From a bacterium (GTDB lineage: Bacteria; Myxococcota_A; UBA9160; UBA6930), in NCBI GenBank assembly GCA_024228115.1, contig JAAETT010000333.1:1-44605 (forward strand): 44,605 bases of DNA. Reading direction: 5' to 3'. Positions 27,073 to 38,185 of the stretch are shown one piece after another. Under the pieces are notes generated by a model. It ran no database searches, was not told the origin of the DNA, and was given only the letters and a program-made list of their open reading frames with translations. How positions within the stretch are numbered: the stretch's first letter is position 1; the number at the start of each line of letters is the position of its first letter. The position numbers and the translations under genes are program-made.

Positions 27073-28152
27073 ATGCCTACCCTCTGGCGCTATACCGCTG
27101 TCCGCTTCCTCACGGCCTTTGCCGGATCACTCGTGATTCTGGCGCTCGTTCTGCTGGTCGTCGACATGTTGCTGAATCTCGGCGATGTGATCGAGGCCGA
27201 GAGCGGCTTTCTGGGCGCGATCGGATTGCTCCTCCAGCGCACCACAGCCACCTACCTCCCCTACCTGATCCCGGTCTCGACGTTCACCGCGGTCCTGTTC
27301 TCCGTAGGTCAGGCAGCTCGCCACCGCGAGATCGTCGCCGCGAAGGCGGGAGGCGTCTCTCCCCTTCGGGCCCTCCTGCCCATCTTCGCGATCTCGGCAG
27401 GCATCGCCCTGTTTTCTTTCATCCTGAACGAGACCGTCACCCTTCGAGCCGCCAGCGCCATGAATGCGAGTACCGGATCCTCGGTCGGCGAGGTCACCTT
27501 GAGATCCGGCTCGATCTGGTATCACACGGGCAAGATGATCTACAACATCCGAGACCCGCGCCCTGAAGGCCAGACGGTCCTCGACGTGCGGGTCTTCGAA
27601 CGAGACGAGGCCGGCCGCCTCGTCCGGCTCATCCACGCCCGCGAAGCGGAGCGCCTGGCGCCCCATGAATGGCGTTTCGTCGGAGCCACGATTCGGAGCT
27701 TCGACCCGGTCGATGCCAAGAATCCGCCGATCGTCGAACGGGCCGAGGAGATCGTCCTCGAACTGGGAGAAGACCGGACACCCCACCTCCAACAGGCCGA
27801 GCTCGTGGTCTTGCCCCTCGCCACGCTCGCGGAGTACGTGAGCGACGTTCTCAGCGAGGGCGGCAACGCGGGACGCGCACGATCGCTCCTTCACAGCCGG
27901 CTTACGATTCCATTCCTGGTGCTCCTGTTCGCCCTCCTCGCCGTGCCGCTTGCTCTCTCCGTGGAGCAGACCCGGAGCCTTGCCATGCCTGCCCTCCAGG
28001 GCGTGGGCCTGCTCTTCATCTTCCTGCTGCTGCGAGAATACAGCGCAAGCTTCGGAGCCCGCGGAGAGCTCTCCGCCGCCCTCGCGCCCTGGATCACCCT
28101 GCTCGTCTTCTTCGCCCTCGGAGGCTGGCGCCTCTCCCGCGTCCACCAATAG
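27073..28152 (+). CDS. LptF/LptG-family lipopolysaccharide export permease
   Basis: The 359-aa product is a YjgP/YjgQ permease: three N-terminal membrane helices (about 10-110), a large periplasmic jellyroll segment (about 120-260; RSGSIWYHTGKMIYNIRDPR), and three C-terminal helices (FLVLLFALLAVPLALSVEQ, GVGLLFIFLLLREYSASFG). Such proteins form the membrane part of the LptB2FG extractor that moves LPS to the periplasmic Lpt bridge. Only one permease gene is present here, so whether it is LptF or LptG cannot be decided; the partner and LptB must lie elsewhere. ATG 27073 has no obvious ribosome site. Confidence 0.87.
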   Translation: MPTLWRYTAVRFLTAFAGSLVILALVLLVVDMLLNLGDVIEAESGFLGAIGLLLQRTTATYLPYLIPVSTFTAVLFSVGQAARHREIVAAKAGGVSPLRALLPIFAISAGIALFSFILNETVTLRAASAMNASTGSSVGEVTLRSGSIWYHTGKMIYNIRDPRPEGQTVLDVRVFERDEAGRLVRLIHAREAERLAPHEWRFVGATIRSFDPVDAKNPPIVERAEEIVLELGEDRTPHLQQAELVVLPLATLAEYVSDVLSEGGNAGRARSLLHSRLTIPFLVLLFALLAVPLALSVEQTRSLAMPALQGVGLLFIFLLLREYSASFGARGELSAALAPWITLLVFFALGGWRLSRVHQ

Positions 28153-28160
28153 GGGGGGCC

Positions 28161-28379
28161 GCTTCGCTTCTCCTTGCGGATCGCGGGGCGGGGCACAGGT
28201 CGGGTGGAAATAAAGCGCAGGCAGAGGCGACTTCCAGCGTGTGCTCGTTCGCTAGCGGCGAAAGCCGCGTAAGCGAACCTGCAACGAGCCCCTACGCGGC
28301 CACCCGATCCCCGGCCGAGCCATTCCACCCGACCTGTGCCCAGCCCCGGCGACTCCCGTCCTCGCGTGAGAAGCGAAGC
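28161..28379. repeat. 219-base nested inverted-repeat (foldback) element
   Basis: Three nested complementarities occupy the gap between convergent genes. The outer arms are GCTTCGCTTCTC (28161-28172) and GAGAAGCGAAGC (28368-28379), 12 bp perfect. The middle arms are 28191-28209 and 28323-28341, 19 bp perfect. The inner hairpin is GTTCGCT/AGCGAAC (28247-28253, 28272-28278) enclosing GCGGC-GAAA-GCCGC (28255-28268) with a GNRA tetraloop; GCTCGTT/AACGAGC (28243-28249, 28283-28289) is an alternative pairing. TCGCGGGGC and its near complement also partly pair between the outer and middle arms. No convincing reading frame lies inside. It could be a MITE-like element, a bidirectional terminator or a structured RNA. 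Confidence 0.8.
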
Positions 28380-28398
28380 AGCGTCGAGTGGCTCGCGT

Positions 28399-29361
28399 CT
28401 AGGGCGATGTGGCTCCGGCTTCGTCCAGGTATTTGAGGAACGGGTGATCCGGCGGAAGGACCATGGTCGTTCCCTCGCCTAGCGTCTTTCGATAGGCCTC
28501 GAGGCTTCGGACGAAATCGTAGAACTCGGGATCCTCGGAGAAGGCGTCTGCATAGACACCTGCTGCGCCCGCATCACCCTCACCACGAATGCGCGTGGCA
28601 TCACCCCGGGCACGTTCGATGGTGATCTCTGCATCCCGATCGGCTGCCGCGCGGATCTTCCGCGCCCCCTCTTCACCTTCGGCGCGGTATTTCTTGGCCA
28701 GCTCTTCCCGCTCGGAGCGCATGCGACCGTAGACCTTCGACTCCGGCTCACCGGATGGGATCTCCGTGCGGTTGATGCGAACCTCGGCGAGCTCGATTCC
28801 GTTGGCTCGAATGTTCTGGCACGACCGCGCCGTGATCACGTCGGTCAAGGTCAGCGGTAGCTCGTTCCCGTCGAGGTCCTTGCGTACCGGCACACAACCC
28901 GATGCCCGTGCGGGGGCCAGATCGACGCCATCCGGGATCTCGCGGGCCAATACCTGCTCGAGCTTGAGGCGCCCGATCACCTCACGCACCCGGCCTTTCA
29001 CCAACTGATTCAGTTGACGCTCGGCTTCCTCGATGCCCGCCGGAAAGCTCTTGTAGAACTGGAGCGGATCGCTGATCCGCCAGATCGCGAAGTTGTCGAC
29101 GACCAGCGGCTCCTTGTCGAGGGTCTGGATGGGCTTCGGTTCCGGCCCCGAGCTCAGATGCAGCCAACGGCTATCGAAGGTGCGGATCTCCGTCACCGGA
29201 AACGCCAACGAGATGCCGGGCTCGGTGATCACCGAGCGCACGTCGCCCAGGAAGAGCGCGATACGCTGCTCTCCTTCGCGATTGAGCACCAACGGGCCGT
29301 AGCCCAGGTAGCTCGTCACAAGCGGTACACCGATCAACAACAACAGAAGAAGACGGGCCAT
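28399..29361 (-). CDS. hflC: HflC-type SPFH protease modulator
   Basis: The 320-aa product has one N-terminal membrane anchor (about 2-20) followed by an SPFH/band-7 domain (GEQRIALFLGDVRSVITEPG, FDSRWLHLSSGPEPKPIQTL, then KEPLVVDNFAIWRISDP) and a long alanine/glutamate-rich coiled coil (EREELAKKYRAEGEEGARKI). In the known system HflC forms a cage with HflK around the FtsH protease. The overlap with hflK (TGATG) and the size support HflC. It is the last gene in a run of three SPFH proteins. Confidence 0.9.
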   Translation of the reverse strand: MARLLLLLLIGVPLVTSYLGYGPLVLNREGEQRIALFLGDVRSVITEPGISLAFPVTEIRTFDSRWLHLSSGPEPKPIQTLDKEPLVVDNFAIWRISDPLQFYKSFPAGIEEAERQLNQLVKGRVREVIGRLKLEQVLAREIPDGVDLAPARASGCVPVRKDLDGNELPLTLTDVITARSCQNIRANGIELAEVRINRTEIPSGEPESKVYGRMRSEREELAKKYRAEGEEGARKIRAAADRDAEITIERARGDATRIRGEGDAGAAGVYADAFSEDPEFYDFVRSLEAYRKTLGEGTTMVLPPDHPFLKYLDEAGATSP

Positions 29362-37450: not shown

Positions 37451-38149
37451 CTAGACGGCTGCCGGGATCTCGGCCGGATCGAGGCGGGGGCCAGCCTTAC
37501 GCCAGCCCTCGGCCAGGAGCGACGTATGTGGCGTGGCGACCGCCACCACATTTCCCCCAGGCCGCTCCCGTGCTTGAGCGACGAGTCCCATGGCAGCGCG
37601 CGGCCAACCCTCGAACCAACGCCCTGAAGAAGCGGGGTCGATCCTCGTTGTCCTGGGCTGCTTTTTCATGTGTCGACGAGCGTTCAGAAGCACGTAGCGC
37701 ATCGCATTCCGTACCTGGGTAGGCGTCCGCAGCACCACATGGTGAAAGCGGTCCAACAGGACACGCCCCTTTCGCCCGAACACCCGATTCACCGCCCGCG
37801 CCAGACGCGCCCCCAACGCATTCATCCCCCTGCCGAGCGCCCCCGCATCCTTGGCCTCGACGATCAGATGCAGATGATTCGACTGGATCGAGTAGTGCAC
37901 GAGCCGGAAGTCCGTGCGCTCGAGCACACAGGCAAACGACCGCTCCACCTCCCGCACCAGCCGCCCATCGCGAAGTGACGGGACATCGGGTCGAACCTTC
38001 ATGGTCACGTGGCACGGATGCCGCGAAGCCAAAGGCGCTCGCTGGAGATGGGCCACTCGCGGGTTCGGGCCGCGCTTGCGACCCGCGCCCTCGCGCCTTC
38101 CACCCCAGCCATGAAGAGGAAGATCAAGCTGAGAAGTCCGACGCACCAT
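37451..38149 (-). CDS. REP-associated tyrosine transposase (Y1/IS200-like, RAYT)
   Basis: The 232-aa product is a Y1-type single-strand DNA transposase. A basic N-terminus (WGGRREGAGRKRGPNPRVAH) precedes the Y1 core: HVTMKVRPDVPSLRDGRLV, the metal-binding HxH in VHYSIQSNHLHLIVEA, and the catalytic Tyr with following Asn in AMRYVLLNARRH. The basic domain is usual in RAYTs of this lineage. ATG 38149 is preferred over TTG 38185, because that TTG belongs to a TTGACA -35 element. The domestic role of RAYTs in cells is unclear; they act on REP hairpins. Confidence 0.9.
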   Translation of the reverse strand: MVRRTSQLDLPLHGWGGRREGAGRKRGPNPRVAHLQRAPLASRHPCHVTMKVRPDVPSLRDGRLVREVERSFACVLERTDFRLVHYSIQSNHLHLIVEAKDAGALGRGMNALGARLARAVNRVFGRKGRVLLDRFHHVVLRTPTQVRNAMRYVLLNARRHMKKQPRTTRIDPASSGRWFEGWPRAAMGLVAQARERPGGNVVAVATPHTSLLAEGWRKAGPRLDPAEIPAAV

Positions 38150-38156
38150 GGTGTTG

Positions 38157-38185
38157 ATATTGGCATTGTTTGTTCTTGATGTCAA
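38157..38185 (-). promoter_or_regulatory. Candidate promoter of the RAYT gene
   Basis: In a noticeably AT-rich patch the minus strand has TTGACA (38185-38180), a 17-base spacer and CAATAT (38162-38157), a weak -10. The RAYT ATG (38149) is 7 bases after it, so the mRNA would be nearly leaderless, consistent with no Shine-Dalgarno sequence before that ATG. The -35 is perfect and the -10 poor. Confidence 0.35.

Follow-up and report, generated by a model that had tools for sequence, protein, structure and literature searches.

The closest described systems are the REPs, palindromes of 20–40 bp with GTAG or CGTC tags whose placement and dimer types have been reported (PMC3733652). GTAG-type REPs are linked to RAYT (Y1) transposases, and another palindrome class is without a known transposase (PMC3733652); REP doublets are the likely mobile unit (PMC3116915). 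We describe here a family of extragenic inverted repeats that is best read as previously undescribed, a large REP/REPIN-like palindrome of a new kind. One copy lies in a 44,605-nucleotide stretch of DNA (the window) from a bacterium of the Myxococcota_A lineage UBA6930, where it occupies the gap between a convergent LptF/LptG gene (PF03739; end at 28152) and an HflC-type Band_7 gene (end at 28399).

The window copy as a whole (28157–28383) is a one-hairpin form of the repeat, with its unit in the sense orientation on the + strand. Sequence analysis located nested inverted repeats at 28161–28379, exactly where a sequence-only reading had placed a triple-nested foldback, and the foldback is real: its arms are found and each strand is more stable than 200 of 200 shuffles (z of -5.6 and -6.4). 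The same reading held that no reading frame explains the structure, and we likewise found no coding frame in the element. The outer arms (28158–28172 and 28368–28382) match at 93% over 15 nt with a 12-bp perfect core inside, at the coordinates first proposed, and they start 4 bp from the end of the LptF/LptG gene and finish 15 bp from that of the HflC-type gene. Taken to its full extent, the left arm, GGCCGCTTCGCTTCTC (28157–28172, + strand), is common to the composites of the genus, and the right arm (28368–28383, - strand) is its inverted counterpart with two mismatches to the consensus arm. The middle arms, 26 nt long with a 96% match that contains the 19-bp perfect stretch, are the 5’ strand (28184–28209, +) and 3’ strand (28323–28348, +) of a long covarying stem in which 25 of 26 positions pair. 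A conserved core follows, with its 5’ half, GGAAATAAAGCGCAGGC, at 28206–28222 (+) and its 3’ half, GGCCGAGCCATTCC, at 28313–28326 (+); the former is near-invariant in 75 genus units and order-wide, and the latter in genus units and order-wide. The apical hairpin, GTTCGC..GCGGC-GAAA-GCCGC..GCGAAC (28247–28278, +), does carry at its tip (28255–28268) the GAAA tetraloop that had been pointed out, but the hairpin is kept only within the genus and its loop in relatives is GAA, GAAA, GATA, GCAA or others, so that a GNRA tetraloop was rejected as a conserved feature.

The genome-wide repeat search that the sequence-only reading had proposed reveals what the window alone could not, namely dozens of further copies in the same genome, about 73–85% identical. 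A covariance model at E<=1e-3 gives 46 matches in this genome (about 45 copies) and 83 in the sister species G003, both figures including a few reverse-strand duplicates of one copy, and copy counts are lower bounds wherever candidates were scored only in part. The repeat unit is a long hairpin of 75–225 nt, with a stem of 24–40 bp and a near-invariant internal loop, and is often found in head-to-head pairs. The full form in the genus is a composite of two hairpins, A and B, whose stem sequences differ from each other and whose 5’ ends face; it is mostly 416–433 bp long and is bounded by outer arms GGCCGCTTCGCTTCTC...GAGAAGCGAAGCGGCC. Other genus forms measure 401–403 bp, about 220 bp (a single hairpin) and 572–576 bp. 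The smallest form of the repeat, L314, is an 81-nt near-perfect hairpin with a fold z of -12.5. In the relative G002 (ARS66), the outer arms lie about 40–400 nt from very many contig ends, so the assembly seems to break at element copies and copy number is probably underestimated. In three copies (L083, L090 and L022) the flanks make up another long palindrome that encloses the element, which looks embedded in an older hairpin; insertion into pre-existing palindromes was rejected as a general rule because it is clear in these three only. We also note a PYLIS_3 match from Rfam at L295 166–265 (+; 49.3 bits against a gathering score of 38), which is unrelated to the element.

Comparison of the lptG-hflC gap in five species shows how variable its occupancy is. 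In G003 the orthologous gap is filled by a two-hairpin copy of 401 bp. G002 and G004 are without an insert, their stop codons being only about 11 and 27 bp apart, and G001 (L222) has a different, unrelated palindrome with arms GGGGACGTTCGTTTCATTGTTGCATT, so that this gap took up unrelated inverted repeats in different species. In the window copy, a GGGGCNGGG microhomology marks the point where the outer arm of a first hairpin (GGATCGCGGGGCGGGG) runs into the A hairpin, and because of this junction we best read it, from the sequences compared, as a deletion form of the composite in which one of the two hairpins would have been lost at GGGGCNGGG.

The family extends well beyond the genus. The model R1 matches 10 of 14 genomes of the family and 30 of 91 of the class. 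Of 379 phylum genomes, the order-wide covariance model R2 picks out 41, every one of them from a single order. A pattern search puts names to some of the hosts: contigs of Deltaproteobacteria bacterium Meg19_02_Bin_150 correspond to G003, those of ARS66 to G002 and one of Myxococcales bacterium 13_May_SF_Bin102 to G062, and a host that was not expected is Oligoflexia bacterium PL23a_bin.77. Most of the remaining pattern matches were unconfirmed by the covariance model. In PL23a_bin.77 (2.9 Mb; about 50% GC over the 8 kb read), 30 matches share the family core; this MAG is labelled Oligoflexia, a group that NCBI assigns to Bdellovibrionota. Its copies (L151, L368–L397) have AT-richer stems of two types and are mostly head-to-head where paired. 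A search of viral contigs for the element gave nothing convincing, and the matches listed in a literature search with the core sequences concern unrelated subjects.

What hardly changes across the order is the core, whose 5’ half reads GAARUMAAGCGCAG and whose 3’ half reads CGAGCCAU; the loop that separates the two can be anything from a few to about 130 nt long. Stem sequences differ among copies while their complementarity persists. In 30 diverse genus units, 95.7% of cells are paired and 18 pairs of the named structure have compensatory changes; the covariation score is 0.287 as compared to 0.093 +/- 0.008 when shuffled and at most 0.047 when slid. Across 62 units of the order the score is 0.705, against 0.146 shuffled and at most 0.118 slid, although the order alignment was fitted to the model and thus leans towards it; the stems are also recovered by a model-free scan for motif and complementarity. 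Pairing is therefore kept when the arms change, which is the check that the sequence-only reading had put forward, and its option of a structured molecule is supported by strong covariation and by a preference for one strand. That the arms change freely yet remain complementary around a near-fixed core indicates that the conserved thing is a folded single strand, either DNA or RNA.

Departures from Watson-Crick pairing bear on the same point. With stems picked by a strand-neutral score, G-U departures outnumber A-C departures in one orientation by 58:6 in the genus, 41:8 in the order and 19:4 in the Oligoflexia set, and by 24:3 within subfamilies; p-values for such counts overstate the evidence because the copies are related. 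The bias is spread across stem positions (17 vs 3, 15 vs 6 and 10 vs 4), and the short apical hairpin has no excess of G-U over A-C. Equal frequencies of G-T and A-C would be expected if the duplex mattered, and the excess of G-U thus implies that the main stem is selected as a folded single strand. Judged from these sequence counts, the strand selected in folded form is the one oriented GGAAATAAAGCGCAGGC...GGCCGAGCCATTCC, and both RNA and single-stranded DNA fit this.

Of the close pairs, all 19 from the genus and 17 of the 18 from the order are head-to-head (36 of 37 together), and copies lie mostly tens of bases behind stop codons. Convergent, tandem and divergent contexts number 19, 19 and 1 in the genus and 30, 17 and 2 in the order, as compared to a background in the same loci of about 27–37% convergent and 12–17% divergent gene pairs; genes were called by a simple GC-frame method, and individual contexts may be wrong. 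Single copies between tandem genes are sense in 13 cases and antisense in 12, as expected for inserted DNA rather than for a cis-acting mRNA element. About ten sites are common to the window genome (G000) and G003 or G004, which shows that transposition is not fast. However, same-site copies in sister species are mostly no closer than copies elsewhere in their own genome (L027 and L080, for example, are 0.61 alike at the same site, compared with 0.92 to a copy elsewhere in its own genome), a pattern that points to turnover or conversion, and at shared sites copies are replaced by other subfamilies.

The main rival is a structured RNA, in which the hairpin acts in transcripts, as a 3’-UTR processing or stability element or a protein-binding non-coding RNA, with the core serving as an internal-loop RNA motif that a conserved protein binds. 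Compensatory changes, invariant loop nucleotides and one-strand tolerance of G-U are the usual signs of functional RNA, and the position of copies behind genes means that read-through transcripts would carry the hairpin, with a head-to-head pair between convergent genes offering each transcript one sense unit. We nonetheless consider this possible rather than likely, since single copies between tandem genes show no preference for the sense over the antisense orientation relative to the upstream gene, no conserved promoter-like sequence is seen between the 5’ ends of paired units, close relatives are without the element at the same site, other subfamilies replace copies at one site, and in the order set just about 2% of stem cells are G-U pairs. 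The family resembles the structured RNAs of Rfam 15 in its compensatory covariation and invariant loop nucleotides, but differs in matching none of the 4227 families at the gathering score, either in the window or among the order and Oligoflexia copies; weak matches to miRNA precursors at a low threshold were dismissed as chance matches of long hairpins.

Among the options raised by the sequence-only reading, a MITE-like element comes close: the copies are small, non-coding and dispersed, those of the genus have defined inverted outer arms and fixed lengths, and two relatives lack the element at the orthologous site. A classical MITE would be a non-autonomous DNA transposon with inverted ends that a DDE transposase moves in double-stranded form. 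Target-site duplications (TSDs), however, were not found, matched flanks being no more alike than mismatched ones, and no exact junction could be defined from flank comparison. Nor did the fetched loci show a linked transposase or a parent transposon between or beside the units; a larger element with a gene between units was considered at two loci and rejected, both holding the same orthologous secreted host protein. Ends vary between genera, the most distant copies mostly having the inner core and not the genus outer arm sequence, so it is the internal structure that is conserved, and ends alone leave the one-strand covariation unexplained. We regard a classical MITE as improbable. The weakest alternative, likewise raised by the sequence-only reading, is that the convergent genes share a DNA cruciform or an intrinsic terminator that works in both directions. 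We would give it very little weight: the highly stable, GC-rich fold of the window copy a few bases behind both stop codons has the look of one, but none of the 140 genus and order units has a TTTT run in the 12 nt next to the 3’ foot (each set has one instance on the other side), the stem is far longer than that of a terminator and has a conserved internal loop, half of the copies in the genus sit in tandem contexts, two relatives are without the element at the same site, the excess of G-U over A-C disfavours a symmetric double-stranded cruciform, and neither version explains the core and the strand bias.

The comparison with REPs, BIMEs and REPINs is the most informative. The family is like these in being a set of dispersed palindromes outside genes that lie shortly after stop codons, where the neighbouring genes are convergent or in tandem and seldom divergent, in occurring as singles and inverted dimers, some of different stem types, and in having a strand-specific fold. 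It differs in size (units of 75–225 nt as opposed to 20–40), in having its motif in an internal loop near the tip where REPs have a tag at the foot, and in the tag itself: GTAG at the stem foot occurs in 1% of genus and 7% of order copies against 14% and 12% expected, and CGTC is at the expected level in both, so that neither tag marks these copies. GTAG at the stem foot in the Oligoflexia genome stands at 41% against 19% expected. A link to RAYT was also rejected. The window genome has 12 matches to Y1/RAYT genes, one of them within the window, where a 244-aa gene (37451–38185, - strand) has a Y1_Tnp domain (IS200-like, RAYT-type) just over the Pfam cut-off; no element copies lie near Y1 genes at the 20 loci examined, and a PF01797 search of eight incomplete MAGs (G017, G058, G060, G062, G067, G069, G087 and G090), each with several elements, detected none. 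With size, tag and RAYT association all departing from the known pattern, we do not file the family as REP.

On balance, we think it somewhat probable that the window element belongs to a new family of large extragenic palindromes of a REP/REPIN-like kind that are mobilised as a folded single strand by a putative enzyme. This is supported by the dozens of dispersed copies and presence or absence at the lptG-hflC gap in five species, by controlled covariation together with a one-orientation G-U excess in three separate sets and within subfamilies, by head-to-head pairing and placement behind stops and rarely between divergent genes, by paralogues that are usually as close as the same-site copy or closer, and by the lack of promoter-like sequence between 5’ ends, with location and dimer types as in REPs (PMC3733652, PMC3116915). 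It is weakened in that a mobilising enzyme was not found, TSDs and an exact junction were not defined, and about ten sites are common to sister species, and in that a functional RNA, too, would show compensatory changes in the stem around an invariant internal loop. The functional form in the mobile-palindrome reading would be a folded single strand of DNA exposed in replication, transcription or excision, and the putative enzyme would recognise the core in the hairpin and copy or convert elements across the genome. A head-to-head pair would supply one correctly oriented hairpin on each DNA strand, intergenic placement at the 3’ ends of genes may reflect sites that tolerate insertion, and the window copy would have passed from a two-hairpin composite to one hairpin by deletion at the GGGGCNGGG microhomology. 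A broader proposal, which we advance tentatively and with not quite even confidence, is that these long hairpins, arranged head to head and sharing an invariant core in their internal loop, present order-wide and in an Oligoflexia-labelled MAG and independent of Y1/RAYT, are a hitherto unknown kind of structured nucleic acid, mobile or functional, that has its own putative recognition enzyme.

The family thus behaves genomically like REPs, but has a different and well-defined core and is without detected Y1 in many of its hosts. The explicit motif and the covariance model can be used to seek its enzyme by co-occurrence, and whether such palindromes work as RNA or as single-stranded DNA becomes directly testable.
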